Source of the DNA: Saprospiraceae bacterium
GTDB taxonomy: Bacteria; Bacteroidota; Bacteroidia; Chitinophagales; Saprospiraceae
Direction: 5' to 3'
DNA length: 64,000 nt
Assembly (NCBI GenBank): GCA_027488935.1
Contig: JAIYAP010000027.1
Coordinates: 1-64,000 of the forward strand
Shown: in pieces, positions 29,865-57,414 of the stretch
Position numbering within the stretch: position 1 is the stretch's first letter
Layout: each line of letters opens with the position of its first letter
Position numbers and translations under genes: made by a program
Notes under the pieces: generated by a model
What the model saw: the letters and a program-made list of their open reading frames with translations, nothing else
Told to the model about the DNA's origin: nothing
The model's database searches: none

Positions 29865-31235
29865 ATGCAAAAGTTTTTTGTTTTACCATTGTTTTTGCTG
29901 CTACTAAAGGGTAGCGGTCTTTACGCTCAGTATTTGTATGTTGGAGGCGCTTCGCCGAGCGGAGGTTTGGTTTTTGGGGTGTTCAACGTTGCAACATGTC
30001 AGTATTGTACGCAGTTTACGGTTCCTCTTAGCACTTTCCCAAATGGTTTGGTGGATGTAGTTCCCTTACCCAATGGGAATGTGGTCGGTTTTGGTAACCA
30101 AGGTCAAATTTCGATATTTTCTCCCCCAAGTTCAACCCCTATTTCGTCCACCAATGTTCCAGGAGGCGAATTCGTAACGGGCGCAGTGCTGGCACCCAAT
30201 GGAAACATTTACATAACAACCTATACCGTTGTTGGAGGTGTGGCGGATCCAAAGATTTTCGAGTACAATCCAACATCCAATTCGATTACTTTAGTGGGAG
30301 AATTCCCGGCTCCTAATGATGTAGTCTTGACACAGCCTCTATATTTGAATGGCATTTTATATGCTTTTATGATTGATTATGGCAATCCAGGCGGGACATC
30401 CTATCATTTGGTAACCGTGACGCTTGGCAATCCAATGGTCCTCAATATTGTAGATACCTATTCAATTTACTGCGGTGCGCCTGCTGCTTCCATTCCCAGC
30501 GGGCCGTTTGCCGGGATTTATGGAGGCAATTTGGATCCGAATTGCACGGGTACGGACGTGTACCAATCCAATATAGGGGGCGGTGCTACCTTCCAATGCA
30601 CAGTTCCAACGTTACTTTTATATGCGCTGGGTTCAGTCCCCACTGGATTTCCGGGAACAGCTAATTGTGGTTGTTCCACCGATGCTGGTACCGTTAATAC
30701 GCCGAGTGCTGATTTGTGTCCCAATGAAATATTTCCATTTGTAAATACGGGTGGTTTTTTAGAATCCAATGATATCAAGCAGTATGTGCTGTTTACGAAT
30801 CCCAGCGATACGGTTGGCAGCATTGTAGCTACCAGTAACACGCCCAATTTTTCCTTTGCGCCGCCGTTGCTGACTGGCGTGACGTATTATGCCGCTGCGA
30901 TGGCTGGGAATAATACGGGTGGAAATGTGGATTTGAGTGATCCTTGCCTGGATTTTTCCAATGCAACCCAGGTGATATGGCGTCCGCTGCCCACGGTAAC
31001 CTTTACGGCTGCCAACCCGAATGTATGTGCGGGTGCTTGCACTACGGTGACGGCTACTTTTACAGGCACAGCGCCCTTTACGCTCACGTACACAAGCACG
31101 GGCGGGAGTGCTGTAACCCAAACATTTCCAGGCAATAGCGGTACTTTTCAGGTGTGTGTGCCGGTGGGGGCGGCACCGGGGAGTTTTACGTTGGCGGCTA
31201 CAAGTTTGGTGGATGCTAATTGTAGTTGTCCGTAA
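29865..31235 (+). CDS. Secreted propeller-like protein with conserved CxC-terminal module (family member 1)
   Basis: 456 residues. Signal peptide (LFLLLLKGSGLYAQ); an N-terminal beta-propeller-like part with the CxxC motif (NVATCQYC), the PLPNGNVVGF and LAPNGNIY turns; then CGCSTDAG; a middle block (FLESNDIKQYVLFTNPSDTV...); and the terminal ~80-residue module (NPNVCAGACTTVTATFTG... FQVCVPV... LVDANCSCP) with five cysteines. No T9SS type A or B signal seen. Unknown function, probably secreted. Convergent with the next gene. Confidence 0.75.
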   Translation: MQKFFVLPLFLLLLKGSGLYAQYLYVGGASPSGGLVFGVFNVATCQYCTQFTVPLSTFPNGLVDVVPLPNGNVVGFGNQGQISIFSPPSSTPISSTNVPGGEFVTGAVLAPNGNIYITTYTVVGGVADPKIFEYNPTSNSITLVGEFPAPNDVVLTQPLYLNGILYAFMIDYGNPGGTSYHLVTVTLGNPMVLNIVDTYSIYCGAPAASIPSGPFAGIYGGNLDPNCTGTDVYQSNIGGGATFQCTVPTLLLYALGSVPTGFPGTANCGCSTDAGTVNTPSADLCPNEIFPFVNTGGFLESNDIKQYVLFTNPSDTVGSIVATSNTPNFSFAPPLLTGVTYYAAAMAGNNTGGNVDLSDPCLDFSNATQVIWRPLPTVTFTAANPNVCAGACTTVTATFTGTAPFTLTYTSTGGSAVTQTFPGNSGTFQVCVPVGAAPGSFTLAATSLVDANCSCP

Positions 31236-31249
31236 TTCAATGTTTTCAT

Positions 31250-32293
31250 TTAATTACAGATACAAAACGCATCCGACAAACTCGTGGATTGAATAAGTAC
31301 AGGTCCGGGCGGCACATTTCCCGGTACACAAATCGTAAATGTGCCGCTCAAACTGGCAAACGACTGTGTGAAAAGCGCCAGGGTATTCCCACCCACAACC
31401 ACCGCTACGGTTAGCGTAAAGGGCGGGGTTCCGGTAAAAACGGCAGTGAGGGTTGGACAGGCGCCAACACAAATGTTTTCATTGCCGATATTTAAAGTAA
31501 CCGTAGGCTTTGGTGTGATGTTTACAATAACCTCATCGGTATCCGAACCGCACCCTGGCGTTGTTACGGTAACCGTATAAGTAGTTGTAATGGAAGGAGT
31601 TACACTTGTGCTTGCCGTTGTTGCGCCATTGCTCCAGGCATACGTGCCGCCACCGGTAGCACTAAGATTCGCATTTGCTCCACTACAAACACTGACATCC
31701 TGCCCGGCATTGGCCACAGGCGGCGCACCGTTCAGGTTGAAGGTAATAGACCAGGAAAGCAAGGTGCCGATATCAATCGCCACGTAATCGTTAATGTACA
31801 AGGTCCAGTTTCCATCCGCATTGGTGCCATTGTAGGTACTGGCAAACGTAAATGTACCCAACGGCGGAGCATTGCTGTACGGATTGTTCAGGTTGGTTAC
31901 CCGTCCTTCTGGCCTAAAATTGCCTGTATAAGGTGGAGTGCCAGTTGTAATAAAATCACCCGCATTATCAGAAAACACCGTATTCGTGTAATTGTCCCCG
32001 CCACCACCATTGCTTGTGGATAGTTCGAGTACTTGGCCTCCCGGACCAATCAATAAAATGCCAATATCACCTACAAAAGTATGTTGCAGATCAATCGTTA
32101 CGTTTTCGATCGTCACACAGTTGCCGATGATCCCCACACCAGTCACATTGCAAAGGGATTGGGTAACACCGATGGTCTGAGTAGGTGCTCCAGGGGGGAT
32201 GGGAAGATTTCCTTGTCCCGTAAAGGTCACAATTTGGCCCTTCATCCCCCCTGAAAAACAGACCATTAAGCAAAACAACAACCGTATTTTCAT
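31250..32293 (-). CDS. P-domain/PKD-like secreted protein with the same CxC module (family member 2)
   Basis: 347 residues. Signal peptide ends near FSGGMKGQ. Residues ~20-190 form a proprotein-convertase P-like domain (VTIDLQHTFVGDIGILLIGP... GNWTLYINDYVAIDIGTLLSW). Residues ~192-260 are a PKD/Ig-like unit (CSGANANLSATGGG..YAWSNG). The C-terminus is the shared module (ENICVGACPTLTAVFTG... LSDAFCICN) with all five cysteines. It shares only this end with the propeller members, showing the module is separable. Confidence 0.78.
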   Translation of the reverse strand: MKIRLLFCLMVCFSGGMKGQIVTFTGQGNLPIPPGAPTQTIGVTQSLCNVTGVGIIGNCVTIENVTIDLQHTFVGDIGILLIGPGGQVLELSTSNGGGGDNYTNTVFSDNAGDFITTGTPPYTGNFRPEGRVTNLNNPYSNAPPLGTFTFASTYNGTNADGNWTLYINDYVAIDIGTLLSWSITFNLNGAPPVANAGQDVSVCSGANANLSATGGGTYAWSNGATTASTSVTPSITTTYTVTVTTPGCGSDTDEVIVNITPKPTVTLNIGNENICVGACPTLTAVFTGTPPFTLTVAVVVGGNTLALFTQSFASLSGTFTICVPGNVPPGPVLIQSTSLSDAFCICN

Positions 32294-32304
32294 GCTAATT
32301 TTTA

Positions 32305-35300
32305 TTATCGCAAGATCGTGACATCGCCCTTAATTGTTTCAGAAGTACCATCGCGGTACAACAATTCCGTCCAATATACATATACGCCCGGCATGACCGC
32401 CTGTCCTCTGAACTGGCCATCCCAACCCTGATTTGGATCGTTTGGTAAAAAGTTTTCTAACAACACGATTTGCGTACCCCAGCGGTCGTAAATCTGCAAA
32501 CTTTTGATTTGTACAAGCCGTTCGTCCCCAAAAATGGTAAATGCATTGTTGTTGTCGCTGTTCAAATTGATCACATTGGGGATGTAAACCTGTTTGTTTT
32601 TATTTACCCTTATCAAAAACAAGCCCTGCGCTGCACATTGGCCAAAGCCTTTTACATCCAATTGAAGCAGGGTGGTGGAAACAGGGGTCAGTACAGGATC
32701 CAGGCAATCATCGCACGACAATTGTCCGGGGCCGGAAAGCGACCAAATGATATCCAGCGGGGCAATGGTAATGCCCGCACCCGCATTGATTTTTATCGTA
32801 TCACCCAAATTAATGTCAAACGTATCACTAACAAACTCTTTGACGATTTGCGTAGGCAAAAGCACCACATTTTCGGTGGTTTTACAGCCATTGGCGTCGC
32901 TAATTTCGACATCGAAATTGCCCGCATTCAGGCTATTGAAATTCAAGGGATCAATACCATTGGTGACACCGATATCCTGCACCAGGCGTACGGTATAGGG
33001 GCCAAAACCACCTGCTACCTGCGTCACTTCGATGATACCCGCATTTTGACAAGTGGGGTTGGTTGCATCAATCGTGGCTAGTACCGCAACAGGTTCATCC
33101 AACTGCACCGAAGCAGTACCGCTACATCCTGCTGCATCGGTAAACGTGACCGAGTAAGTGCCTGCCACCAGGTTTTGGGCGATGCTGTTGCTCGATCCGT
33201 TGCTCCATTGATAACTAAATGGTGCGGTTCCACTCAATGGCGTGACACTCGCTTCGCCATTCGAGCCATCCTTACAAGCTATATTGTAACCGTTAAAATC
33301 ACTGATCGCCAAGGCATTTCCGCTTATCCCGGCACCTAAAGTAGTTTCCGTAATAACCAGGCTATCACACCCATTTGCTTTATTAAAAATTTGAATGTCT
33401 ACACCTATGGCCGACAAATCACAAGTCGTTTTTTGTAATAATATGGTGTCTGAAACGGCAATATTAACGATGGCAGAAGCCAAACCTGTACAGCCGTCGG
33501 CGTCGGTTACGGTAACATTAAACGTACCTGCCTGATTTATGGTGATCACCGAAGAAGCCTCGCCTGTATTCCAATCATATACGGTGTATCCTTGATCAGC
33601 CAACAGGATCATTTGGCTGGCACAATCTACGGGCGCTACTGTGATGGATGGGGCAAACGGCGGTTTTTGGGTCACAACAATCGTATTGGCAGCTGTACAA
33701 CCAAGCGCATCCTGCACCACCAAAGCGTATAAGCCTGGTGCCGAGACCGTAACTTCAGGGGTTGTGCCACCATTCGACCAGTTATAACTGGTAAAAATGC
33801 CCGAGGAGGATAAGTTGGTGGTTTGTCCAGCACAAAGGGTGGTATTTCCAGCAATCGTTACTTGTGGATTGGTTGGTATGGTTACCTGGGTCGTTACCGT
33901 TCCTGTGCAACCTGCTGCGTCTGAAACCGTTACGGTGTAGTTTCCGTTTTGATTTACCTTGATATCGGCGGTGTTTAGGCCATTGTTCCAATTGTAATTG
34001 GCAAACCCGGCCCCAACACTCAGGGTAATTTGTCCGTCGCATTGATACGGTAATTGGCTCAAAACGGGCGATAAAGCAGCACCTGCATTTACCGTAATAG
34101 AACTACTGCCGGTGCAGCCATTGGTATCCGTTACGGTTACCGAATAAGTACCCGCTTGGTTGGCCGACACACTGGCCGTATTTTGTCCGCCCGACCAATT
34201 AAAGGCGCTGAAATTGCCTGTTACACTTAATTGGACCGGATTGTTGCCACAAATGACATTTGGTCCACTGATTTGCGGTACAACAGTCGGTAGATTTTGC
34301 ACAATTTGGGTGGCAGTAGCGGTACATCCGTTTCCATCGCTTACGGTTACGGTAAAATTGCCGCCCGCATTTACATTGATGCTGGCGCTATTGTTGCCAT
34401 TCGACCAGGCATACGTTACAAAACCGGCATTGGCACTTAAAGTAGTTGTTTCTGCGACGCACAATAGAGCATCGCCGCTAATTTGCACACTAGGCAACGC
34501 AGGTACCTGCACTTGCAATGTTGCCGTACCCGAGCATCCGTTTCCATCGCTCACGGTGACGGTGTAATTGCCGGAAGTATTTACATTAATAGTTGCCGTG
34601 TTGCCGCCCGTGCTCCAGTTGTAATTTGGGAAGCCCGCACCAGCGTCTAAGGAAACCTGGCCATTACAAGCATAAGGTAATGGACTGATGTTGGGGGTGA
34701 TCTGGTTGGAAACAATTACCGAGGTCGAGGCGCTGGTAGTACATCCATTGCCATCGGTTACGGTCACCGTCGCCGAAGCGGGAGGCTGCACGGTAATATT
34801 GGCAGTAGTTGCGCCATTGTCCCACAGGAAACTGCTAAAATTGCCATTAATTCCTAAATTGGCGGTATTGCCTGGACAAACGCTGCTCGGACCGCTAATG
34901 GTTGCAACCGGAGCCGTGAAGATATTGGTTGTCAAGGTGTTGGTCGCAGTACAGCCAAGCGCATCCGTTACGGTTACGGTAAAAATACCTGCTGTATTTA
35001 CCGAAATTGCATCAATTTGTGCGCCCGTGCTCCAGTTGTAAGTACCAAATCCGAGGCTGGCACTAAGCGTTGTATTCCCGCCCGGACAAAATGCGGTGGT
35101 TCCGCTGATATTTACGGTGGGTAGGGAAGGTACAGTAACGGTTTGTGTTGCGATACCTGTACAGCCATTGCCATCGGTGACGGTGACGGTATATGGGCCG
35201 CTGGTTGCTACTGTTTCTATATTGTTAGTCCCTCCGTTGCTCCAGCTGTAAGCGCTATACCCGGCATCGGCAGTGAGGCTTAATGTACCATTGCAGGTAT

Positions 35301-38300
35301 AAGGTTGAACACTGGCTTGTGGTGTCGGGTTTGTGTTTACCGTGAGCGCAGCAACGGCAGTACCGATACAGCCGTTGTTGTCGGTTACAGTTACAGTATA
35401 AGGTCCACTTGCGTTGACAGAAATGCCCGCGCTGTTGCTGCCTGTACTCCAAATGTAATTTGTAAAAGATTGATTTACAGTAAAATTAGCATTATTTCCG
35501 ACGCAGATTGCGGCAGGCCCGTTGATCGCTGGCGTAGGTAGTGGTTGAGCCGTTACACTGGTGCTTGCTACGAGGGTACAGCCGTTGGCATCGGTGGCGG
35601 TTACGGTAAATGCACCCGTTGTGTTGACCGTAATATTATTTAAGGCGCCGCCGTTGCTCCACTGATAGGATTGGGCGCCGTTCGCAGTGAGTATGGTATT
35701 GGCATTTGCACAAAAGACTGGATTGCCTGTGATGGCTACCGCGCTAAGGGTAGGCACCGTGGCCGCAAAAGTATCAACGCCGATACAGCCGCTGGCATCT
35801 GTGACCGTTACAATGTAATTGCCCGAAGTATTGACCGTTGTGGTTGCGGTATTGCTGCTGTTGCTCCATTGATAAGTACTAAAGCCCAGTCCAGCATCCA
35901 AGGTAATTTGTCCGTTGCATTGATAAGGTTGTGGTAAAATATTGGGCGACAAGTTGTTGGCTACCGTAAGGCTGGCGCTTGCTGTACCGCTGCAACCTGC
36001 AATGTTGGTTACCGTAACGGCATAAACGCCACCTGTATTTACCACAATGTTTGCGGTCGTTTCGGCATTGTTCCACAAATAGCTGCTAAATCCAGCGCCT
36101 GCCGAAAGCGTTGCCGAACTATTTACACAAATTACGGCGGGTGCGCTGATTTGAGGGGCGGGCGCTGCGGTGGTATTCAAGGTAAATCCAGCGGTCGTCG
36201 TACATCCAAACACATCGGTTGCGGTAACCGTGAATGGCCCTGCCAATCCGACTGTAATATTTTCACCTACTTGTCCATTCGACCAAATATACGTACTAAA
36301 ACCGGTGCTGGCATTCAAAACGGTGCTGGCGCCCTGACAAATGGTATTTATTCCGCTGATGCTCACAACGGGCGGGGTAGGTAAATTGGCGGTCACAATG
36401 GCCGTACCGGTACAGCCGCCGCCATCCGAAACCGTTACCGTATAATTGCCATTTGCATTGATGGTTAAAGTTTGATTGGTACTCCCGCCCGACCAATTGT
36501 AGGTGGCAAATCCCAATCCGGCATCCAGGGTGATTTGTCCATTGCAGGTGTAGGGTTGTTCTACGATTTGGGGACTTAAACTGGTGGAAACGATCAGATT
36601 TTGTGTGTCGGTACCCGTGCAGCCATTGACATCGGTGACGGTAACGGTGTAATTATTAGGCGTATTTACAACAATATTGGCCGTGTTTGCCCCGGTCGAC
36701 CATTGGTAGGTACTAAAACTGCCTGCCACAGAAAAGGTTGCGCTACTGCCATTACAAATGGTTGCAGGGCCCGCAATCAATGCTACTGGATTGTTTACGG
36801 TATTTATAGAGAAGGTATTACTTGCGGTACAACCAAAAAAATCGGTTGCCGTTACGGTGTAATTTCCCGATTGTCCGACAGCAATCGTGGGTGCCGTGGC
36901 GGTGTTTGACCAAACATACCCGCTAAATCCGGGGGTGGCGGCCAGCGTTGCCGTAGCGCCTGCACATATTTGCGCTGGACCCGTAATAGACACCACGGGC
37001 AGGGTCGGAATATTGGCAAAGAAACTATTGGTGCCCGTACAACCTTGTGCATTGGTGACGGTGACGGTATAGGTTTGGGTGTTCAATACGGTTGTATTGG
37101 ACGTATTGACGCCATTGCTCCAGTTATAAGTTGCAAATCCAGCATTTGCCTGAAGCGTAAGTTGTTCATCGCACAAATAAGGCAATTCCGAAATGCCTGG
37201 GTTGGGTGCAGGGATCAAATTGAGGTTTTGCGTATCCGTGCCAGTGCAGCCATTGGCAGCGGTTACCGTCACGGTGTACAAACCAGCGGTATTGACCGAA
37301 ATGGTGGCTGAGTTTTCGCCTGTAGACCATGCATAAGTTGAAAACGGCGCACCAAGGCTATACACAGTGGAAAGTCCACTGCAAATGGAAGGCAAACCAC
37401 TGATGGTCGGATTGGGTGCGGGAATGGCATTTAGGGTGAAATTATCGGTCGTCGTACAGCCAAATACGTCGGTTACTGTAACAACATAAGTTCCTGCAAG
37501 ATTGACCGTAATATTTTGGGTAAACTGACTGTTGCTCCAAACATAGCTGGAAAATCCGCTACTTGCGCTCAGCTGCGTATTGCTGCCGGTGCAAAAACTG
37601 TTGTTTCCAGTAATGTTAACGGATGGTGGAGTAGGGATATTGGCAAAATAGGTGTCCGTTCCGGTACAACCGGCCGCATTTGTGACGGTAACCGTAAATG
37701 CACCCGAAGTAGTTACCGTATTGCTGGCGGTGTTAACACTATTACTCCAATTGTATCCGGTAAATCCTGCGCCCGCATTGAGTACGATTTGGTTGTTGCA
37801 ATTGTAGGGCGCTTCTGTAATGTTCGGCGCGGGTAGTGGAATTAAACTCAAGTTTTCGGTCGTTGTGCCCGTACAACCATTCGCGGCAGTTACCGTCACA
37901 GTGTACAAACCTGCCGTTGAAACAGAAATGCTGGCGCTGTTTTCGCCGGTAGACCAGTTGTAACTATTAAACGGAGCCGTAACGGCAAAAGTAGTGTTGT
38001 CGCCCGTGCAAATACTTGTAGTTCCACTGATATCGGGGGTTGGATTTGGAGAAACACTCAAGGTGAAATTATCTGTATCGGTACAGCCAAACGCATCGGT
38101 GGCGGTTACCGTAAAATTACCCGCCGTATTTACGCTAATGGAAGGGCCGTTTTGTCCAGTAGACCAGGAATAACTGGTAAAACCTGCATTTGAAGTCAAA
38201 TTCGCCACATCACTGCTACAAATAGAGGCTGGTCCGCTGATGTTTACGACGGGTGCCGTCGGAATGGTGACACTCAAGTCGTCGGTTGCAGAACAACCTT

Positions 38301-39529: not shown

Positions 39530-40873
39530 CTAATTCCCGCAAGTACAATTACCATCCACCAAATTCGTCGCGTTTACCGTAAGTGGACCACTATATCCAG
39601 CCGGTGCACAAACTTGAAAACTTCCGGTCAGGCTATTAAAGGTTTGTGTAAAAGTTTGGGTATTACCGCCTGCAGTAACCTGGTAGGTGAGCGAAAAGGG
39701 CGACGATCCGGTAAACGTGGCACTAATTGTTTGGCAAGATCCGTTGCCGCAAATAATCGGTGCGCCGCTGAAACTAACGGTGGGGCTTTGTGACCAGCGA
39801 ACCCGTCTATAGCTTCCTGTAAAGTCGGCGCAAGGCTCCGTGAAATCTACGGTTCCGGGCAGTTCATTTGCCGCTACGGCCATAATCGAATAAATCACGC
39901 CCGTTTGCATGAGGCCTGGTATAAATGTCGCAATTGGATCAGTATACGTGTACAAAATGTTGTATTGCACATCCGGCGTGGCGCTATAGTCATACGTCCA
40001 AACCACAAATACAAGATCATCATCACTGTCTAATAGTTGATTCCCATTGTGTTGTAAGGGAATTGGATCCAGGCTGCAAGCGGTCAATAAAGGCGGCCCG
40101 GCAAAGGAGCCAGATTCGGAGGTGCAATCACACAAAGGACCGGAGGCATTGAGCGGATCGGGTGCCCAGGAATAAAAACCACTGTCAATAAAGTCACCGT
40201 AACAAAGGGCATTGTAATTGCCGGTGCTTACATCGAGTTCGCCGAATAAATCAGATCCGTTTACTGGACCAAATACCTTGTTACATATCCCCATGAGTGG
40301 CCCGGAAGGCGTAGGGAAAAGCGTAACTAGTTGGGACGAAAATGTCGGTGATACGGTGATTTGATAGATATTGCCGTTTGGGTGGTTCGTATAAAGATTC
40401 CCGTTGTATTCAAACATTTCTGAAAACCCGTTCAGTCCAGATTGGGTGCCAACCAATGTTGCGGTATTTTGATTGATATTATAAATATAAAAATTACCAT
40501 TTTGTTGCCAAAGCAAGGTGCTGTCCGTCAATCCGTACAAGGAACCCGAACCTGCCAATGGTAGGGTAAATTCCATGGTTGTGGTGGCCGTAACAGGATC
40601 ATATTTAAATATCTGGCTGTGGTAGGGGGGATCCGGCATGCCGCCAGAAATGTATATCGTGCCATCTGGCATCATCCAAAAATCACCAATGCGCATGGAC
40701 AGGCCCGGCGCTACAGGCGTTTGTTCACAGGTAAGCAGGTTTACGGATACGATGGTATTGGTGCTCGTGCCAAGCATGATCAAAATACTTTGGGCATGGG
40801 ATGAGGTTTGCTGTAAAAGTATAAAAAGGACCAAGCCTAGCGCTCCTCGGTCGATAAATCTGCATGTTTTCAT
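39530..40873 (-). CDS. Propeller-like secreted protein with CxC module (family member 3)
   Basis: 447 residues. Signal peptide (VLFILLQQTSSHAQ). The N-terminal propeller-like domain has MMPDGTIYISGG, but the CxxC seen in other members is CEQT, missing the second cysteine. A CDCTSESG motif and the middle block (DSDDDLVFVVW..) follow and the terminal module ends LVDGNCTCGN. It is the most divergent of the propeller members in both halves. It lies 104 bp upstream of the giant gene on the same strand. Confidence 0.75.
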   Translation of the reverse strand: MKTCRFIDRGALGLVLFILLQQTSSHAQSILIMLGTSTNTIVSVNLLTCEQTPVAPGLSMRIGDFWMMPDGTIYISGGMPDPPYHSQIFKYDPVTATTTMEFTLPLAGSGSLYGLTDSTLLWQQNGNFYIYNINQNTATLVGTQSGLNGFSEMFEYNGNLYTNHPNGNIYQITVSPTFSSQLVTLFPTPSGPLMGICNKVFGPVNGSDLFGELDVSTGNYNALCYGDFIDSGFYSWAPDPLNASGPLCDCTSESGSFAGPPLLTACSLDPIPLQHNGNQLLDSDDDLVFVVWTYDYSATPDVQYNILYTYTDPIATFIPGLMQTGVIYSIMAVAANELPGTVDFTEPCADFTGSYRRVRWSQSPTVSFSGAPIICGNGSCQTISATFTGSSPFSLTYQVTAGGNTQTFTQTFNSLTGSFQVCAPAGYSGPLTVNATNLVDGNCTCGN

Positions 40874-46872: not shown

Positions 46873-46929
46873 GGTGCGTGTCTTTAGGGTATTAGGAAGC
46901 GCTTGGCATGCTCAAATGCGGTATTTTGT

Positions 46930-48057
46930 TCACTGGCAAGTACACCAAGCGTCCGTAAACGCTGTCGCCGTAACCACCAAACTCCCTGACGACGACCCCG
47001 GCAGAGTACACACCTGAAACGTTCCCGTATTTCCCGGAAAAGTTTGTGTTACAGTCCCGGAAGTGGGTGAAGTATACGTCAGCGTAAAAGGTGCCGTGCC
47101 GGTGAAAGTGGCCGTTATCGTCGTGCAGGCCCCTGCGCACACATTGGGATTGGCAGCAGAAAAAGTGACTGTTGGCAGAGGCCGCCATACCACCTGCACG
47201 GTATTTGAAATATTAAGACAAGGGTCGTTGAGGTCCACATTGCCATTCACGCCATTGCCCGCTATCGCTGCTATGTAGTAGGTCACGCCCGTCTGCATGG
47301 TGGCTGGATTGAAACTGAAGGTGGGTGTTGTGCTGGTAGCGACGATGCTACCGAGGGTATTGGCGGGGTTGGTAAACAGAATATATTGCAAAAGGTCATT
47401 CGACTCCAAAAATGTTTGAGAGGCCGGAGGAATCGTCGCGTTGCTACCCGGACAAAGATTGAGGGGGCTCGCCGAAATCACGCCAGCGTTGGTCACACAG
47501 CATTGGGAACAGATAAACAGGGAAAAAACAACGCCATTGGGAGTGCCTGAAATGATCACGTCTTCCACCTTTAAAGTACTGATCGTCGTGTTGATGTCCA
47601 TATTTCCCCAAGCACCAGTTTGTCCGGGGGCACCTCTGACTGCACCAGGCGGCGTTATAATAGCCGGTGTAAAGCAAGAGCCAGGTGTACCGGGTATCGT
47701 AATTGGATAAGGGGCTCCATTGATTTCAAATAGCACCTCTTCCACTGCCTGAGAACCAAACTGATTATTGTCTATGCCGGTCAAGCCTAATGACACACCG
47801 GAAACAGGTGGGGAAAAAGTGAACGTATAACTTCCATTGTTGCTTCCATTACCAGCCCAATAAGGCGTTTCGCCACAATAATTCAGCGTGGTAGTTGATC
47901 CCTGGGCTGTAACTGTAACATTTGTGCAGCCTACCTGAATAGTACCTGATGTATGAAGAACTGGTGTGGTACATTGCCCTTGCAGCTGGTACGGTAAAAA
48001 AACCATGAGCAGTGAAAATAAACTGAAAAGAGGGAATAGGCGTATTAATTTTTTCAT
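46930..48057 (-). CDS. CxC-module protein with a distinct N-terminal domain (family member 4)
   Basis: 375 residues from ATG MKKLIRLFPLF (longer upstream frame is a shadow of the next gene's 3' end). Signal peptide ends ..QLQGQ. Unlike other members the N-terminal domain is not propeller-like (YTFTFSPPVSGVSLGLTGIDNNQFGSQAVEE.., a carbohydrate-binding-like pattern). It has CCVTNAG, the middle block (FLESNDLLQYILFTNPANT..), and the terminal module ending FTDAWCTCQ. Start and stop are tightly spaced from the next gene (20 bp), suggesting an operon. Confidence 0.75.
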   Translation of the reverse strand: MKKLIRLFPLFSLFSLLMVFLPYQLQGQCTTPVLHTSGTIQVGCTNVTVTAQGSTTTLNYCGETPYWAGNGSNNGSYTFTFSPPVSGVSLGLTGIDNNQFGSQAVEEVLFEINGAPYPITIPGTPGSCFTPAIITPPGAVRGAPGQTGAWGNMDINTTISTLKVEDVIISGTPNGVVFSLFICSQCCVTNAGVISASPLNLCPGSNATIPPASQTFLESNDLLQYILFTNPANTLGSIVATSTTPTFSFNPATMQTGVTYYIAAIAGNGVNGNVDLNDPCLNISNTVQVVWRPLPTVTFSAANPNVCAGACTTITATFTGTAPFTLTYTSPTSGTVTQTFPGNTGTFQVCTLPGSSSGSLVVTATAFTDAWCTCQ

Positions 48058-48077
48058 TTCAAAATCTGTTGTGAGCG

Positions 48078-49424
48078 TTAGTTGCATACGCACCAAGAAT
48101 CTGTCAGCGATGTTGCTGCCACCGAGTAACTCCCCGGCGGCGACCCCGGCAGGGTACACACCTGAAATGTGCCTGTATTTCCCGGAAAAGTTTGTGTTAC
48201 TGTCCCGGAAGCGGGTGAAGTATAAGTGAGGGTAAAAGGTGCGGTGCCTGTAAAAGTCGCTGTCACGGTCGTGCAAGCGCCTGCACAAACATTGGGATTG
48301 GCGGCAGAAAATACTACCGTCGGCCGCGGCTGCCAAATGACGGAGACCGCATTGGATATATCAAAACAAGGATCATTAGTATCCAAATTCCCGTTTGGCA
48401 ACAATGGGCCAGCCATCACCGCATAATAATAGACCGTACCTGCTTGCATGGTTGCCGGGTTAAACGGTATGGTTGCCGTCGTACTGATGGCGATGATGCT
48501 GCCAAGTGTGTCAGTCAGATCCGTAAACAAGATGTAACGCACGGCTTGCCCGACGTCAAGGGTGGGATTTTGTGTCGCATAGCCAGTTACGGCGTTGGGA
48601 ATACAGGGGTTCAGGGGGTTGGCATCCAATATACCCGCTGAGGTGGCGCACACGCAGGGGAACTCCGGCAACCCGGGCGGTGCCGCCGACAAACCGGTTA
48701 ATTGAATGATGAAGCCTATGTTCCGAAAGTCGCAGAGCCGAATAGTGTCGTTGGTTGCCGGATCAAACGAATACAAAATTTCTCTGGACCCATCGGCCGC
48801 TGTGGTATACGCACCACTGCATATCCCTCCGTCCAAACCGCCTGCCGTGAGTGGTGCATTCTGAGAAAGAATGATGGAGGCCGAAGGGGTGGTCGTATTT
48901 ACTTCAATGATAGACCAGCCGCCAGGCACCAAAGCATTGGCGTACAGGGTGTTGTTCTCTATAAAGAAACCGCCCAGACTCCAATTAAGCGGAAAATTAC
49001 CGAGGTACGTTAGGGTTCCGGCTACCGGGTCGAAAGCAGTAACGCCAGTAACACCCGCCCCGTTAATAATGGTGTATACATACACGATGCCATTCAAAGG
49101 TTCTGAAATGGTGTAGTAATAATGGTTTCCAGGCCCGGAAAAAGTCTGGGTAGGATTCTGATTTGGCGGTGTAAAGATCTGGAGTTGATTGAGCGCGCCT
49201 GAGGAGATTACGGTACCGTCGGGCATTACCACTAGGTCAACACCTGAACTATTGACATTGAATTGACCAACTTTGCAGGCGGTGCAGTTGGCAACGTCTA
49301 TTTTGATCAAATTGCCACCAAAAGTCCAGGCGTATACGATTTGCCCTTGGACCTGTGGTACATTACTCCCCAAAAACAGCACAATGACAAATGCAAGGCG
49401 CCAATTCAAAAAAGTTCTTTTCAT
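48078..49424 (-). CDS. Propeller-like secreted protein with CxC module (family member 5)
   Basis: 448 residues. Signal peptide (VIVLFLGSNVPQVQGQ), CxxC in DVANCTACKVG, DLVVMPDGTVISSG, then a propeller-like part, CVCATSAG, the middle block (LDVGQAVRYILFTDLTDTLG), and the terminal module ending LTDSWCVCN. The terminal module DNA is almost the same as in the next two copies downstream and upstream. It lies 44 bp from member 6 in the same direction. Confidence 0.78.
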   Translation of the reverse strand: MKRTFLNWRLAFVIVLFLGSNVPQVQGQIVYAWTFGGNLIKIDVANCTACKVGQFNVNSSGVDLVVMPDGTVISSGALNQLQIFTPPNQNPTQTFSGPGNHYYYTISEPLNGIVYVYTIINGAGVTGVTAFDPVAGTLTYLGNFPLNWSLGGFFIENNTLYANALVPGGWSIIEVNTTTPSASIILSQNAPLTAGGLDGGICSGAYTTAADGSREILYSFDPATNDTIRLCDFRNIGFIIQLTGLSAAPPGLPEFPCVCATSAGILDANPLNPCIPNAVTGYATQNPTLDVGQAVRYILFTDLTDTLGSIIAISTTATIPFNPATMQAGTVYYYAVMAGPLLPNGNLDTNDPCFDISNAVSVIWQPRPTVVFSAANPNVCAGACTTVTATFTGTAPFTLTYTSPASGTVTQTFPGNTGTFQVCTLPGSPPGSYSVAATSLTDSWCVCN

Positions 49425-49468
49425 GTTATTAATTTTTATTTACAGCGTGTCTTTTGCGGCAATCAGCT

Positions 49469-50836
49469 TTAATTACAAGTACAAAATGCATCCACCAATT
49501 CAGTCGCCGGAACCACCAAACTCCCCGGTGGCGACCCCGGTAGGGTACACACCTGAAAAGTGCCTGTATTTCCCGGAAAAGTTTGTGTTACTGTCCCAGA
49601 AGTGGGTGAAGTATAGGTGAGGGTAAACGGTGCGGTGCCTGTAAAAGTCGCTGTCACGGTCGTGCAGGCGCCTGCACAAACATTGGGGTTAGCGGCAGAA
49701 AAAGTGACAGCAGGTAAAGGCCGCCAAACGACTTGCAGCGCATTAGAGAAATCCAGACAAGGATCGGTCAAGTCCACATTGCCATTCAGGTTGTTGCCTG
49801 CCATGGCTGCTATATAGTAGGTTACACCCGTTTGCATCGGCGGTGCGAATGAAAATGAGGGTGTATTGCTGGTTGCAATGATGCTGCCCGCTGTGTCGCT
49901 AGGGTTGCTGAAAAGGATGTAGCGTAGGATGTCATCGCTTTCTAAAAACACGCCCGTACTCCCAGAAAAGTCAGCATTGTTATTTGGACAGATATTTAGC
50001 GGGGCACCAGTGAGGATCCCAGCGTTGGTGTTGCAGACGCAGCCGTACTCGGGCACGCCCGCAGGGGGGAAGGAAAGACCGACTATGTATAAATCATTAG
50101 GCAGGTCGCAGATAAGTTCCGAACTTTGGGTTTGGGCGTTATAGAAAAAAATATCCGAGGCATCACTAACTGCCAGGGAGTAAAAAATCCCCGCATTGCC
50201 ATTCCAAGTGCCGCCTTCTGCCCCGGCAGTAGGAAACAAAGGCCCTAAGATAATTGACATAGAAGGATCACCGATATTAATTTCCACCAGAAGTGGATTA
50301 AAAACGGCATCGTAGGCTGTTCCATAAAGCACGCCATTAATGTAATAAATTTCATCAACGAAAGAAATCGTACTGGGCCAATTTCCGAGATAAGCGACCG
50401 TATTGGTTGCAGGATCGAAGGTGCCCAAGCCCAAATCTCCGGCTAAGTAAACCAGCCCGTTTGGAGCCAACTGGCCCGTATAGTAAAGTTGCGGGTCATT
50501 GGACTGCCATACTATCTGAGTGGACGGGGGCGGTTGGGTCCTTTTTAACCCATTGAAAAAGATACCAAATATATTCAAAATGTCTCCTCCCGGCAGCACC
50601 ACCATGTCACCAACACTCAGATTAGGGGATGCTGGCGTGACAGCACAAAAATCACAGGTGCTTAAATTTATTTTGTAAATGAATCTTTGTTGCCCATTAG
50701 TACTATAAAGTGTTGCATAAATAATTTGGGCATCCACCTGATTGGGCAAGATGAAACAGATCACAATGACCACTGAGTATAAAGCGGTTTTTGAGATGGT
50801 GTAAGCGCAGTTTGTAATAAAATTGAGATGTTTCAT
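49469..50836 (-). CDS. Propeller-like secreted protein with CxC module (family member 6)
   Basis: 455 residues. Signal peptide ends ..LPNQVDAQ. CxxC in NLSTCDFC, DMVVLPGGDILNIFG, LAPNGLVYLAGDLGLGTFDPATN blade, CVCNTNAG, middle block (FLESDDILRYILFSNPSDTAGS), terminal module ending LVDAFCTCN. First gene of a three-gene minus-strand group (with members 5 and 4). Function unknown; the propeller blades resemble SMP-30/lactonase-type repeats but no catalytic residues are identifiable. Confidence 0.78.
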   Translation of the reverse strand: MKHLNFITNCAYTISKTALYSVVIVICFILPNQVDAQIIYATLYSTNGQQRFIYKINLSTCDFCAVTPASPNLSVGDMVVLPGGDILNIFGIFFNGLKRTQPPPSTQIVWQSNDPQLYYTGQLAPNGLVYLAGDLGLGTFDPATNTVAYLGNWPSTISFVDEIYYINGVLYGTAYDAVFNPLLVEINIGDPSMSIILGPLFPTAGAEGGTWNGNAGIFYSLAVSDASDIFFYNAQTQSSELICDLPNDLYIVGLSFPPAGVPEYGCVCNTNAGILTGAPLNICPNNNADFSGSTGVFLESDDILRYILFSNPSDTAGSIIATSNTPSFSFAPPMQTGVTYYIAAMAGNNLNGNVDLTDPCLDFSNALQVVWRPLPAVTFSAANPNVCAGACTTVTATFTGTAPFTLTYTSPTSGTVTQTFPGNTGTFQVCTLPGSPPGSLVVPATELVDAFCTCN

Positions 50837-50928
50837 ATTGTATCTGCTTCAATAGTTCGTTAAAAAAGGGTGCATTTCAAATTGTCGCATGATCTGACAA
50901 ATATATATGTTTGCGGTTAAAAAACGTC

Positions 50929-51114: not shown

Positions 51115-51279
51115 AAAAGTTACGAGCAGCAGGGTTAACCCGAACAGCGAAAAATTCCATTTAATGAACAAATGATTCATATTAAATTATTTTGACAATT
51201 GTTTTAAGGTATCACATCCAATATTAGCATTCCATCGCCCTGTTTTTTCTACGCTGTTTTCCCACTTCCAATATTCCGT

Positions 51280-52638
51280 TCACTGGCAAGTACACAAAGC
51301 GTCTGTCAACGCAGTCGCCGGAACCACCAAACTCCCAGGCGGCGACCCAGGCAAGGTACACACTTGAAAAGTGCCTGTATTGCCTGAAAATGTCTGCGTT
51401 ACGCTGCCAGTGGCCGGGTTGGTATAGCTCAGGGTAAACGGTGCCGTACCCGTAAAAGTCGCTGTCACCGTCGTACAGGCTCCCGCGCACACGTTGGGAT
51501 TGGTAACGGAAAACGTAACCGCCGGCAAAGGCTTCCACTCCACTTGCAGTGCATTGGAAAAATCAAGGCAGGGATCGTTCAAATCCACATTTCCGTTCAG
51601 GTTGTTGCCCGCAATGGCCGCGATGTAATAAGTCACGCCCGTTTGGAGGGGCGATGCAAAGTTGAAATTAGGCGTGGCGCTGGTGGCCACAATGCTGCCT
51701 GCCGTATCACTCGGATTGCTGAAAAGAATGTAACGCAGGTTGTCATTGGCATCGAGCACGGTGCCGGTAGTGGCAGGGAAAGAAAGGGTACTGTTGGTGC
51801 AAATATTGTACGGTCCACCCGAAGGAAGGGTGCCTGCGTTGGTGGTACAGTTTATAATGCAGCCGTATTCCGGAAGGCCGGGCGGCGGGAAGGATAAGCC
51901 ACTAATAATCCCATCCGCTGGTATATCACAAACCAAAGTACTGGTGCTGTCCGCTGGATTATAAAAATACAGGTCACCCAAGGCATCTCCGGCAAAAATG
52001 CCCGCATTTCCATTCCAAGTCCCACCTTCGACGCCTCCCAGGAAAGGGTATGCGCCAAGAATGATCGATTGGGAAGGGTTGGCTATATTTACTTGAAGAA
52101 AAAAGGATGCGCCAAAACCATCATACCCTGCTCCATATAATACCCCATTGATATAAAATAGATCAACTACCCCTAAAACGCCTGGTGGCCAGTTACCTAT
52201 GGAAGTCACGGTATTGGTGGCGGGATCAAAAACAGAAAAACCCGGTTCGCCTCCCAAATAAACCAAACCATTGGGCGCCAATTGTCCGGAATAAATTTTC
52301 CCGGGAAAGTTAATTGTTTGCCAAATGGCTTGCGTGGAGGGAGGCGGAAGCAGCCTGCTAAGGTTGATATTGCTAATGTGAAGGTGGTTGCCGTCTGGTA
52401 GCAGAACCAAATCAAGGTCCCCAACATTGAGCGAATTCGGTGTAATGGCACAAAAAGTACAGGTATTTAAGTTTATTTTTATCATATACGCCTGACCGGC
52501 AACAAAATCAAAAAAGGTACCGTACATGATTTGCCCATGCAGTATTTTCGAAAAAAATAAGCCCAGGAATACAAGATTAAAACAACGATTACCTACCTGA
52601 AATAAGCACCGAGAAAAAACAGCCTTTAAATGTTTCAT
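51280..52638 (-). CDS. Propeller-like secreted protein with CxC module (family member 7)
   Basis: 452 residues. Signal region ..LVFLGLFFSKILHGQ. CxxC in NLNTCTFC, DLVLLPDGNHLHIS, LAPNGLVYLGGEPGFSVFDPATN, CIINCTTNAG, middle block (LDANDNLRYILFSNPSDTAGS), terminal module ending LTDALCTCQ. Closest to member 6 in the N-terminal half. An IS relic separates the two. Confidence 0.78.
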   Translation of the reverse strand: MKHLKAVFSRCLFQVGNRCFNLVFLGLFFSKILHGQIMYGTFFDFVAGQAYMIKINLNTCTFCAITPNSLNVGDLDLVLLPDGNHLHISNINLSRLLPPPSTQAIWQTINFPGKIYSGQLAPNGLVYLGGEPGFSVFDPATNTVTSIGNWPPGVLGVVDLFYINGVLYGAGYDGFGASFFLQVNIANPSQSIILGAYPFLGGVEGGTWNGNAGIFAGDALGDLYFYNPADSTSTLVCDIPADGIISGLSFPPPGLPEYGCIINCTTNAGTLPSGGPYNICTNSTLSFPATTGTVLDANDNLRYILFSNPSDTAGSIVATSATPNFNFASPLQTGVTYYIAAIAGNNLNGNVDLNDPCLDFSNALQVEWKPLPAVTFSVTNPNVCAGACTTVTATFTGTAPFTLSYTNPATGSVTQTFSGNTGTFQVCTLPGSPPGSLVVPATALTDALCTCQ

Positions 52639-52869
52639 ATCGTATTTACTTTTACAATATAGCCAACGCTAAATGGTTCTGAAAACGGCTGAATTCTAAT
52701 CCATTGAAAATCAATTTTTTTATCCATCCATCCTTCAAACCTACTTTAACCTTGGTCTAAAAATGCGCATGACAAAAATAGGCCATGGATAGGGTGCAAA
52801 CAAAGCTGTTCAGCCTGAAAATGATACAATTGTACAAATTGTACAAATCACTCAAAACTGAAAGTATTG

Positions 52870-52901
52870 CTTGTGGTTGATACCATGAAAAGTTAATTTT
52901 G
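52870..52901 (+). promoter_or_regulatory. Promoter of family member 8
   Basis: TTG (52871-52873), 20 bp, then TAATTTTG (52894-52901), an exact fit to the Bacteroidota consensus. The same arrangement occurs upstream of the broken copy (55982-56013). The leader to the start codon is 63 bp. The remainder of 52639-52869 shows no gene. Confidence 0.6.
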
Positions 52902-52964
52902 TTGAAAAAAATGCAAAGTCCCCCTTGTTTATAATCAATTTTCCTGTCCAATTTTATTGCAACG

Positions 52965-54281
52965 ATGAAATTTTCCCTACTTGCCCCAATCGCAGCACTC
53001 CTGCTGACCATAACACTGCAACCACCCTGCTCCGCACAAGCCCAGCAGAAAGCCTTGCTCACAGGGCCTATTTTATACGGGGTAGATGATTACGGTTTAT
53101 TTTATAAAATAGATGTAATGAACTGTACAATTTGCCCGATATTTCAGGCGACCGGATTCATAGGAGGTATAAGTGATTTTGTAGTATTGCCCGATGGCAA
53201 TATCTTGGCACAATCGGGATTTGGATTAAGGTTATATGACCCGCCTAATCAGACACCTATTTGGTCTGATAATACCTTGGCCACTGGAAGTATTTTGGCA
53301 CCTAACGGTCTTGTTTATCTTTCTTCAAATCTTACCCTAAGTGTGTTCGACCCTGCTTCTAATACAGTAACCTTAATTGGTAATTGGCCTGCAGGTTTAT
53401 CAGTGGATGAACTTTATTATCAGGGCGGAGTTTTATATGCAATTGCTATAGATATAGCCCCTCCTAACCAAATTAAAATCATTGAAGTCAATTTGACAAA
53501 TCCGGAGTTGTCCGTTATTGTCGTGCCAATGCCTCCGATAAATATTAGTGGCGGTACCACAAATAATGGTTACACAACATCTATAAGTTCCACTAATATT
53601 TTAAGACAATATAATACGATTACAAATAGTTTTAACACTGTTTGTACGCTACCCATTTCTATATCTGGACTTAGTGATCTCCCGCCGAATGTACCAGAAG
53701 AACCTTGTCTTTGTCTAACAGATGCTGGTTCTGTAAATACAATTAACTACAACGTTTGCGTCCCCGGTAGCGTAACGGTACCCTTTAATAACAATGCCAT
53801 TTTAGACGGTAATGATATCTTGCGCTATATCTTATTTTCTAATCCAAGTGATACCTTGGGCAGTATTTTGGTACAAAGCAGCAGCGCCACCCTTAATTTT
53901 AATCCGGCCACCATGCAAACTGGTATTGTATATTATTTGGCTACACTCGCTGGCGACAATCTGAATGGCTCGGTGAATTTGACCGATCCTTGTCTCGACA
54001 TTTCAAATGCAGCGCAAGTGATTTGGCGACCCAAACCTGTCGTATCTTTTTCGGTAAGTAACCCGAATGTATGCGCCGGTGGATGCACTACCGTAACGGC
54101 AACTTTTACGGGTACGGCTCCTTTTACGCTCAGTTACACTACACCCGGAAACGGAACACAGACGCAGACTTTTTCGGGCAATACCGGCACTTTTCAAGTG
54201 TGCGTACCCGCAAATGCCGCTCCTGGCAGTTTTCAATTGACCGCTACGTCCTTGGTGGATGCCTGGTGTAGTTGTAATTAG
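52965..54281 (+). CDS. Propeller-like secreted protein with CxC module (family member 8)
   Basis: 438 residues. Signal peptide (LLAPIAALLLTITLQ..CSAQ). CxxC in DVMNCTICPIF, DFVVLPDGNIL, LAPNGLVYLSSNLTLSVFDPASN, CLCLTDAG, middle block (AILDGNDILRYILFSNPSDTLG), terminal module ending LVDAWCSCN. Its promoter, leader, signal peptide and terminal module closely match the broken copy at 56077-57414. It reads on the plus strand, opposite to members 3-7. Confidence 0.78.
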   Translation: MKFSLLAPIAALLLTITLQPPCSAQAQQKALLTGPILYGVDDYGLFYKIDVMNCTICPIFQATGFIGGISDFVVLPDGNILAQSGFGLRLYDPPNQTPIWSDNTLATGSILAPNGLVYLSSNLTLSVFDPASNTVTLIGNWPAGLSVDELYYQGGVLYAIAIDIAPPNQIKIIEVNLTNPELSVIVVPMPPINISGGTTNNGYTTSISSTNILRQYNTITNSFNTVCTLPISISGLSDLPPNVPEEPCLCLTDAGSVNTINYNVCVPGSVTVPFNNNAILDGNDILRYILFSNPSDTLGSILVQSSSATLNFNPATMQTGIVYYLATLAGDNLNGSVNLTDPCLDISNAAQVIWRPKPVVSFSVSNPNVCAGGCTTVTATFTGTAPFTLSYTTPGNGTQTQTFSGNTGTFQVCVPANAAPGSFQLTATSLVDAWCSCN

Positions 54282-54364
54282 ATGTGCCAAGTTCCAAACT
54301 CAAAACTATTTCCAGAACACAATTTTGCTGGCGGACTGCAACACGGCCTTATCGCACAAGAACT

Positions 54365-54397
54365 GGAGCACGGTCATCCCGGAAATGACCGTGCTCC
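54365..54397. repeat. Perfect 13-bp hairpin in possible transposase relic
   Basis: GGAGCACGGTCAT (54365-54377) pairs with ATGACCGTGCTCC (54385-54397) around a 7-nt loop; no T-run follows. The region 54282-54420 read in frame gives ..VIPEMTVLHSDGYKAYKP.., resembling the DGxKAY segment of some transposases, so it may be an IS relic. The match is too short to be sure. Confidence 0.4.
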
Positions 54398-54416
54398 ATT
54401 CCGATGGCTATAAAGC

Positions 54417-55778
54417 TTACAAGCCCTTCACTTCAACCCGTCGGTTTTCAAAGTTTTTATAACTTGTTGCCGGGTACAGCGCTTTTTCGGTACCGTAAAA
54501 TTCAACTTTAATCTGATTTCTAGTCTGCAGCGCCTGGTACCGCTCCGAACGTTTTCTTAGTTTCTGATCGACGTATTTAAATACCTCCGTTTGGATGAGT
54601 TCTGCGCGTTTGCGTGCTAATTTCAAATTTTTTAAAGCGTCTCCATCTGGGCTGGAATGCCCTTCAATCACAATTTTGCTGTTCGGATTGGCGATTAAAT
54701 ATTCCGCAATTCCGATAATGGACGCGTTGAAACTTTTTCTTTGTGGTCGTATGAGGGTTGTTGTATTTGAATCGAATAAAAAGGTGTGAAACTGAATGGC
54801 TTCCGCATCAAATGGCTTGAATGCGTTTGGATCGGTGAGTGTCAGTTTGCCGGATATCTTTGGGCTATTGGATTTAATGACCACCGGATAACCAAAAGAT
54901 TTTTTGCATTTTCCCTTTAAAATATAATGATTTGAAAATCGGTCGCCTAATTCTTTAAAAATACTGGTGTCGATTCCATTCGACGGATAAAACTTACCAC
55001 CGGTGTACCGACACAATGAATCCAATATGGCGTAGCCGCCGACATCAAAACCAATGGCATAAACGCTGACGTTATTTTCCTTTGCCTTTTTCCAAACGGT
55101 TTGCATCCCGATCCCGCTGGAATTTTCATAACCATCGGTGAAAACAACCAGCGCCCGATCTCCTTTCGATTGTGAGAGCGTTTCAATACCATCGCGAATG
55201 GCAGCATATAAGGCCGTTCCGCCGCCATAATCATTGTAGTTGTCATCCAAGACAGATTTTGGCGTTTTGGTAGGCACGGCATCCACGGGTTTTCTGACAA
55301 GGTTATCATCAAAGTTGAGGCGTGTAAACAGGTTCCCGGATAGTCGTTTGATGAAATTTTCGGCCATCGACTTCAAATCAATTACATAATGAGACATCGA
55401 ACCGGAATAATCCAACACAACCGCAATGTTTATTGGATCCACAATTTCCATTTCCTCTTTCATTTCGGTCACTTCAAAAGTTGGACAAAGTTCCTCAACC
55501 TTTGGTCGTATAATCGTCAAAAGTGATTTTTTCGACGATTTTCCTGCCAAACCAGTGATGAATCTTCCCGTTACTGAATCCTGAACGGCTATTCGAATGG
55601 AAAACATACCGTCATCAACCACTTTTGTAACAGGCGTGATCTTTACGATTAGTTTTTGTTGATCGGACAGGGAATCAATGTTGATAAAATTTGATTGTCC
55701 AAAAATTGGAGTCGACAGGATAAATGCTCCAAGGCACATTAAATGTCTGAAAAAAGCGATTGTAATCATTTGTTTCAT
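54417..55778 (-). CDS. VWA domain and OmpA C-terminal domain protein
   Basis: 453 residues. A signal peptide (..LGAFILSTPIFGQ) precedes a von Willebrand A domain with an intact MIDAS motif, VLDYSGSMSHY, and a C-terminal OmpA/MotB-like domain (HTFLFDSNTTTLI.., IVIEGHSSPDGD, ARKRAELI). The OmpA domain would hold it at the peptidoglycan while the VWA domain binds a protein. It lies inside the CxC-module cluster, on the minus strand between two closely related plus-strand members. Confidence 0.85.
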   Translation of the reverse strand: MKQMITIAFFRHLMCLGAFILSTPIFGQSNFINIDSLSDQQKLIVKITPVTKVVDDGMFSIRIAVQDSVTGRFITGLAGKSSKKSLLTIIRPKVEELCPTFEVTEMKEEMEIVDPINIAVVLDYSGSMSHYVIDLKSMAENFIKRLSGNLFTRLNFDDNLVRKPVDAVPTKTPKSVLDDNYNDYGGGTALYAAIRDGIETLSQSKGDRALVVFTDGYENSSGIGMQTVWKKAKENNVSVYAIGFDVGGYAILDSLCRYTGGKFYPSNGIDTSIFKELGDRFSNHYILKGKCKKSFGYPVVIKSNSPKISGKLTLTDPNAFKPFDAEAIQFHTFLFDSNTTTLIRPQRKSFNASIIGIAEYLIANPNSKIVIEGHSSPDGDALKNLKLARKRAELIQTEVFKYVDQKLRKRSERYQALQTRNQIKVEFYGTEKALYPATSYKNFENRRVEVKGL

Positions 55779-55981
55779 GTGTAAATGGTATGGTGATCGT
55801 TTTGTAAAAAAGAAGATTGCCTGATTAAAGTATATCTAAATTAAATAATCGGAAATGTGGAATCGTGCAGTATTTCGAACTCATGGCAAATATATGTCAT
55901 GTAATTGATGTAGTATTTTTTTATTTAATTTAATTTTAAAAATAATATAATTGTACAAATTGCTGAAAACTGAAAGTATTG

Positions 55982-56013
55982 CTTGTGATTGATGCCATGA
56001 GACATTAATTTTG
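55982..56013 (+). promoter_or_regulatory. Promoter of the broken family copy
   Basis: TTG (55983-55985), 20 bp, TAATTTTG (56006-56013). Sequence around it matches the 52870 promoter nearly base for base. The leader is 63 bp, as in member 8. Confidence 0.55.
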
Positions 56014-56076
56014 TTTAAAAAAATGCAACGCCGTCCTTGTTTGTAATTAATTTTCGTGTCCAATTTTATTAAAACG

Positions 56077-57414
56077 ATGAAACTTGCCCTACTAATCACC
56101 AGCGCTGCACTCCTGCTGACCACAGCAATTTACAAGATATACCCTTCAAAGGCCACACAAAAAGCGTTGATGACCGAGCCGATATTATATGGCATTAGGT
56201 CGGATGGCCAGTTGTTCAAAATAGATGTGATGAACTGCACCGCCTGCCCCATTGCGAATTTATCGGGAATCCTCGGTGGCGCAAGTGATGCATTGGTACT
56301 GCCCAATGGCGATATATTGGTACAATCAGGAGGATTGCTGCGTTACACGCTACCTGATCCTAATCCAATCTGGTCCGAAACTAATACGGTTTATAGCGGA
56401 TCAGTTATCGCCCCAGGTGGCACCATTTACCTGAGCAGGGTTGTTCCTACTGCGGGGCTAAGTGCTTATGATCCTATCACCAACGATATTTTGTTTATAG
56501 GAGACTGGCCATCGGGAATGATTATTTACGAATTTTTTTACCAAAATGGGATATTGTATGGTTTTGGGGTGCTGTCTGGGAATGGTGTGGTCGTGCAAAT
56601 CAATACAAGCGATCCAAGCCAGTCAACGGTCGTGTATTCCGGAGTGTTCACGGATAGTGGCGGTACAACGAATGGGGGATATACTACGGCTTTAAGCGGT
56701 TCAAACGGCAAAATAATCTATAAATACAATGTTTAAACAAATTCATTTGAACTCATTTGCGATCTGACGGCACTTCTTCCTGGACTACCAATAAGTGGTC
56801 TTACGGATCTACCATCCGGCATTCAAGAGGTCCCCTGCCTGTGTAGTACCTTTGCTGGCACCGTAAACCCCACTACTTTCAATATTTGCCTTCCAGGCAG
56901 CGTGACTGTGCCGTACAACAACAATGCCGCATTAGACGCCAACGACATCCTTCGCTATATTTTATTCTCGAATACGAATGACACCCTGGGCAGTATCATC
57001 CTGCAGAGCAGCAGCACTGTTATGGCTTTCAACCCCGCTACCATGCAAACAGGTGTAACCTATTACTTGGCCACTCTGGCAGGTAACAACCTTAATAGCA
57101 ATGTAAACCTGAATGATCCATGTATAGATGTTTCCAATATCGCTGCGCAAGTTACCTGGCGCGACGCGCCCACCGTGTCTTTTTCAGTCGCCAATCCAAA
57201 TGTATGCGCGGGTGGATGCACTACCGTAACAGCAACTTTTACGGGTGCTCCTCCTTTTACGCTCAGCTACACTTCGCCCGGAAACGGGACACAAATACAA
57301 ACTTTTTCGGGCAATACGGGCACTTTTCAGGTTTGCGTACCCGCCAATGCCACCCCTGGCAGTTTTCAATTGACCGCTACGTCCTTGGTGGATGCTTGGT
57401 GTAGTTGTAATTAG
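56077..57414 (+). pseudogene. Propeller/CxC family member 9, interrupted by one in-frame stop
   Basis: Reading continues in one frame from ATG 56077 to 57414 except for a TAA at 56734-56736, after KYNV. The next codons (TNSFELICDL..) resume the family sequence, and CLCSTFAG, the middle block (LDANDILRYILFSNTNDTLG) and the terminal module ending LVDAWCSCN are intact. So it is a nonsense mutation rather than a frameshift, unless it is a sequencing error. The N-terminal part has CxxC in DVMNCTACPI. Confidence 0.8.

Follow-up and report, generated by a model that had tools for sequence, protein, structure and literature searches.

The stretch of DNA analysed here (the window) comprises 64,000 nucleotides, positions 1 to 64,000 of contig JAIYAP010000027.1 of a Saprospiraceae bacterium (assembly GCA_027488935.1). 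Nine genes between 29865 and 57414 encode proteins that share one C-terminal module of 83-87 residues (~83). Alignment of the nine modules gave 23 invariant columns, the five cysteines among them, which confirms the original prediction that all nine proteins end in one five-cysteine module. The proteins had been said to end within 0-3 residues of the last cysteine; the terminal position was correct, and the exact distance to the stop codon is 1-2 residues in all nine genes. On the plus strand, the module occupies 30984..31232 in member 1 (gene 29865-31235), 54030..54278 in member 8 (gene 52965-54281) and 57163..57411 in member 9 (gene 56077-57414). The other six are on the minus strand: 31253..31513 in member 2 (gene 31250-32293), 39533..39790 in member 3 (gene 39530-40873), 46933..47181 in member 4 (gene 46930 to about 48087), 48081..48329 in member 5 (gene 48078-49424), 49472..49720 in member 6 (gene 49469-50836), whose structure was predicted, and 51283..51531 in member 7 (gene 51280-52638).

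The module was present in all nine of the predicted genes, but two gene models had to be revised. In member 9 an in-frame TAA (56734-56736) breaks the coding sequence, and both halves otherwise resemble member 8. Because of this stop codon, member 9 is a broken or mis-assembled copy, broken as assembled. Member 4 as listed begins with TTG and overlaps member 5; its true start is likely the ATG at 48087 or 48057. In addition, the last third of a tenth module, ending in CTCP and belonging to no gene, adjoins member 1 (29572..29643, plus strand). Arrays of this kind seem to grow and decay.

As predicted, the N-terminal parts differ. A β-propeller was recognized by profile in six members (1, 3, 5, 6, 7 and 8). 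That of member 6 is at 50045..50728 on the minus strand, and other copies of the same family are at 29928-30659 and 53070-53702 (plus strand) and at 40136-40786 and 48660-49343 (minus strand). Member 9 is propeller-like, as judged by eye only. A structure search with the mature part of member 6 returned matches that covered the propeller only. The N-terminus of member 2 consists of a P-domain (Pfam, E=1e-12; 31727..32236, minus strand) and a PKD-like stretch, and that of member 4 is a distinct cysteine-rich domain, termed class III (47506..47976, minus strand). Counting arrays of immunoglobulin (Ig)-like repeats found in other genomes, no fewer than four kinds of N-terminus precede the module. 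Eight of the nine members, all except member 2, carry a further domain between the N-terminus and the module, termed AGT after the pattern C.C.T.AGT...DPCL. In member 1 it is the penultimate domain (CxC...AG...DPCLD; 30666..30983, plus strand). Further copies are at 53706-54029 and 56836-57162 on the plus strand and at 39791-40132, 47182-47502, 48330-48656, 49721-50041 and 51532-51852 on the minus strand. The leaders are Sec-like by eye, as had been claimed, with glutamine at +1; a strict pattern caught only part of them. Glutamine at this position is reportedly described as a rule in PMC5837995.

The domains are conserved to different degrees. Among 19 propeller-bearing members in the genome that contains the window (hereafter, the own genome), 159 of 171 pairs had propellers of less than 40% identity. 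In these distant pairs the mean identity was 22% for the propeller, 35% for the AGT domain and 42% for the module, and the module was more conserved than the propeller in every pair (159/159). Comparison of the window copies at the DNA level gave the same gradient as the proteins, the longest identical run being 41 bases.

The module had been called novel-looking. This is wrong at the level of the fold: it is a Pom152-type Ig-like domain. In a profile search the module matched 5tvz, a Pom152-type Ig structure, with a single-domain E value of 6.5e-5. The predicted model of the module from member 6 has six strands in an Ig-like arrangement, with low confidence for the last three residues, and other Ig folds were listed among its structure-search matches. 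The significant profile match and the Ig fold of the model together place the module in this family. In common with Pom152-type domains (PF23664, PF24312; PDB 8t9l, 5tvz), the module has the fold and the signature C-x-G ... G-x-x-P-F-x-L-x-Y ... D-x-x-C, and its first and fourth cysteines are aligned with Pom152 cysteines. It differs from them in three extra cysteines and in the strictly terminal position of the five-cysteine form. Mid-protein relatives of the module are present in giant adhesins.

These relatives were compared with the terminal form by a census of cysteines in the fetched loci and the window. Identical duplicates (76) and partial matches (23) were excluded, which left 118 copies: 91 C-terminal, 25 internal and two at cut ends, the last counted in neither class. 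Sixteen large open reading frames (ORFs) with internal copies were read out of a longer list from a search of the order, and the profile was made from five-cysteine copies, so that internal relatives are under-sampled. Every one of the 91 terminal copies has five cysteines, and in 87 the last is at profile column 82, giving the CxC end. In the other four, the fifth cysteine is placed elsewhere (two "CC", two "VIC...C"). Two loci, L033 and L225, represent a minor subtype without the CxC end, with the fifth cysteine in "VIC" and the count still five. The internal copies have four cysteines (19/25) or two (6/25), and none has the fifth. Among complete large ORFs with internal relatives, 12 of 13 end in a CHU_C-like tail, as judged by eye. 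The alternative offered by the original prediction, a domain often lying before CHU_C, therefore applies to weaker mid-protein relatives in giants, but these are without the fifth cysteine. Likewise, the statement that a sorting role would fail if homologues were mostly mid-protein fits the broad Ig family but not the five-cysteine form (91 terminal, 0 of 25 internal).

The census also suggests how the cysteines may be paired. The second and third cysteines of the internal copies are either both kept (19) or both gone (6), and the first and fourth are kept, as aligned, in five of the six two-cysteine copies. Because of this co-occurrence, and because the first and fourth cysteines are kept and aligned with those of Pom152, the pairs are suggested to be C15-C80, which would be ancestral and has equivalent positions in Pom152, and C19-C58. 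This would leave the fifth cysteine over. Of 67 AGT-bearing proteins, 53 have an even total of cysteines, as do two of five P-domain proteins without AGT; therefore, the fifth cysteine is probably paired with the upstream part of the same molecule in most members. An unlikely alternative is that it links proteins to one another, either as disulfide multimers or by fixing them to a partner on the surface. All 91 terminal modules have an odd number of cysteines, member 2, which has no AGT domain, has nine past the leader, and the total is odd in three of the five P-domain proteins, all of which would suit such a link. Nevertheless, the even totals in the AGT-bearing proteins favor intramolecular pairing, and the last three residues of the model are of low confidence. 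A free terminal thiol as a general mechanism is opposed by the same even totals.

The module is not limited to the nine genes. The profile found 38 places at E≤1 in the own genome (6.28 Mb): 27 near-complete copies, including the nine of the window, one terminal fragment on another contig and 10 weak places, eight of which sit in ORFs of more than 2000 residues. The 27 near-complete copies end 0-2 residues ahead of a stop codon. In the order, where up to 13 candidates were scored for each genome, 86 of 396 genomes gave a match at E≤1e-5. The strong matches are in ORFs of about 350-500 residues from the same genus and from two other genera of the family, g6 (G244) and g33 (G292). Matches were obtained in 12 genomes of the same genus, eight of which show the terminal form. 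In a scan of named genomes, the module was C-terminal at all ten loci, one of which (L045) belongs to Saprospiraceae bacterium SJ275. In two genomes of the same genus (G270 and G284; L098-L101), the arrays consist of ORFs of mostly 640-905 residues that begin with Ig-like repeats and finish with the module.

It is very improbable that the genes are remnants of longer proteins that lost a CHU_C end by frameshift. Some copies are indeed broken (member 9; short ORFs in L012, L016 and L024). However, 91 copies from several genomes keep all five cysteines and have the stop codon 0-2 residues past the profile match. Moreover, the CHU_C matches on the contig of the window, at 32317-32586 and, below cut-off, at 8952-9146, are not behind any module. 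A truncation artefact was set aside on the consistent ends of the 91 terminal copies.

According to PMC10202324, the tails of substrates of the type IX secretion system (T9SS) fall into types A, B and C, the last being a further, less common class of terminal sequence. The own genome is T9SS-bearing: SprA was found with 2310 bits, and sorting tails are present at at least 150 Por_Secre_tail (type A) and 56 CHU_C (type B) places, a few of which match both. In the nine proteins, no match was obtained with the T9SS tail models of Pfam (E≤1) or NCBIfam (E≤0.1), the scan of member 9 covering its 170-residue 3' part only; the prediction that none has a usual type A or B end was thus borne out. Type C membership was also rejected. 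We take NF033708 (T9SS_Cterm_ChiA) to be type C (cl41395) of the above scheme; it matched none of the nine proteins, and its three sub-cutoff places in the genome are not in module genes. Type C (ChiA type) resembles the module as another minority terminal class and is unlike it in that the nine proteins have no NCBIfam match.

The closest parallel in architecture is the C-terminal domain of type A (Por_Secre_tail, PF18962, TIGR04183). Like the module as modelled, it is a terminal Ig-like β-sandwich of about 80 residues behind varied N-termini, and it ends relatives of the P-domain protein. PMC11285876 describes type A tails as Ig-like sandwiches for which the structure and the contact with the preceding domain matter; RgpB was unsecreted after this contact was disturbed. 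Unlike type A, to which it has no sequence or profile similarity, the module has no conserved lysine near the end but has five cysteines and a CxC finish. Type A domains are seven-stranded Ig-like sandwiches whose export depends on the T9SS and PorV, usually with cleavage; the module model is Ig-like with six strands. No T9SS tail appeared among the 50 structure matches listed for the module or the first 50 from Foldseek, which excludes nothing. The type B domain (CHU_C, PF13585, TIGR04131) ends proteins with the same propeller, as well as AGT-bearing giants, but is different in sequence and profile. Type B substrates use PorP/SprF-like shuttles that are often, though not always, encoded adjacent, according to PMC12618676; the module loci are without an adjacent PorP/SprF-like gene (11 scanned). 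PMC11285876 adds that sequence similarity among types A, B and C is low, that a tail may work only in particular hosts and that the features making a T9SS substrate are an open question. Among the papers listed by literature searches, none describes such a module.

The ends carried by relatives of the N-terminal domains were then compared. Of 248 genomes of the family, 67 gave matches to the propeller profile. Outside the own genome, 95 places were listed: 41 ORFs (40 regions) were read, 50 others are outside the count, and four (G244 C197, G292 C51) that end in the module were set aside. The loci were scored without the speed filters of HMMER, which hid 14 of 40. Thirty-four of the 41 ORFs are complete, and Pfam places CHU_C at the end of every one of these. 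For the P-domain, 199 genomes were searched, 106 with matches, and 19 regions were read, mostly high-ranking or short-ORF matches, with two ORFs (L204 and L205) from the own genome. Twelve of the 19 P-domain ORFs are complete; seven end in Por_Secre_tail, three in CHU_C and two in neither, so that ten of 12 carry type A or B. The nearest complete relatives (G176 and G240) have a CHU_C end. The AGT domain occurs in the own genome at 35 places in 30 ORFs. Of these ORFs, 26 end in the module, three, all giants matched by contig, strand and ORF length, in CHU_C, and one in a type A tail; none of the 30 is without both module and T9SS tail. The five-cysteine module thus stands where relatives with the same N-terminus carry T9SS tails, and the distribution is complementary.

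The fold family, the terminal-only five-cysteine form in the fetched copies, the several N-termini and the complementary distribution were all observed. The module family may therefore be an unrecognized surface-sorting or anchoring end. In this model, one Saprospiraceae-like genus and two further genera of the same family would have turned a Pom152-type Ig domain into a dedicated end domain. The proteins would be exported by Sec, as the leaders with glutamine at +1 suggest, and the terminal Ig domain, instead of a type A or B tail, would lead to T9SS-dependent crossing of the outer membrane and/or to retention at the surface. The fifth cysteine, close to the C-terminus, would in most members tether the tail to what precedes it; tethering to a partner is less likely. 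Judged from sequence, the probability that the Ig module replaces the T9SS sorting or anchoring tail as a dedicated end domain is roughly 0.45. It is a more tentative proposal that the module constitutes a further class of T9SS signal, in which an Ig repeat of giant adhesins was recruited through gain of the terminal cysteine and replaced the A and B tails without homology to them. The suggestion of an undescribed secretion or attachment signal is thus supported, although indirectly, by the terminal-only form, the unrelated N-termini and the T9SS tails of relatives. If true, the replacement would show how a new sorting end arises from a mid-protein repeat with fewer cysteines, and it would add a group of surface proteins overlooked by tail models (the own genome has 27 near-complete copies).

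Several results weigh against replacement of the tail. In hhalign the module scored a probability of 0.05% against type A and 0.46% against type B, while the two tails resemble each other at 52% in the same test; distant homology of the module to either is not supported by these profile-profile scores. The swap of ends means that the N-terminal domains occur on T9SS-tailed proteins elsewhere, not that the module proteins are T9SS substrates. Many of the P-domain relatives are remote. For the class III domain, the search gave a single weak hit outside the own genome, in G376, whose end was unrecognized by eye; this is too few relatives for a comparison. Structural constraint could account for the steeper conservation of the module. 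The spread is narrow: 13 of 395 genomes of the phylum match, with the strong short-ORF form in the own genome only, which is the sole listed member of its genus in that survey. Four of the 12 matching genomes of the same genus yielded just weak matches in large ORFs among the candidates scored (13 per genome). PorP/SprF models (E≤0.001) matched none of the 22 ORFs flanking 11 other loci, and no protein family is common to more than three of these 11 neighbor regions.

Nearly as likely as replacement of the tail is an ordinary role for the module, as an Ig end domain with a structural or ligand-binding function on short proteins that lost their tail and are periplasmic or otherwise released. 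Its relationship to Ig repeats inside giant adhesins (for example, locus L037) and to the Ig domains of Pom152, the absence of homology to known tails and the lack of a shuttle gene next to the scanned loci are all consistent with such a role. Confinement of the five-cysteine form to the terminus, however, would be left unexplained, as would the presence of a module or a tail in every AGT-bearing ORF of the own genome and the capping of unrelated N-termini.

A giant adhesin lies beside the array at 32305-39426, with PKD_6 and Ig-like matches, a CHU_C end and Ig-like_POM152 by Pfam, and a protein with VWA and OmpA domains is encoded between members 8 and 9 (54417-55778). The three window neighbors scanned gave no match to a PorP/SprF model at E≤0.001. 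Farther away, a short ORF (8739-9299) has a weak, incomplete CHU_C match of 25 bits, below cut-off. At the other loci, the matches of the flanking ORFs are to unrelated housekeeping, regulatory or surface proteins, several of them type A-tailed. Other arrays of the own genome also include split or truncated copies (L118 4815-6202 on contig C78; L119 6606-9440 on contig C37). A Peptidase_S74 protein (endosialidase chaperone) with a type A tail adjoins module genes at L119 11792-13365 (C37) and L124 6340-8070 (C60), and is split in one of the two. Directly behind a module gene on contig C61 is a phage tail sheath-like gene (L125 8203-9702).

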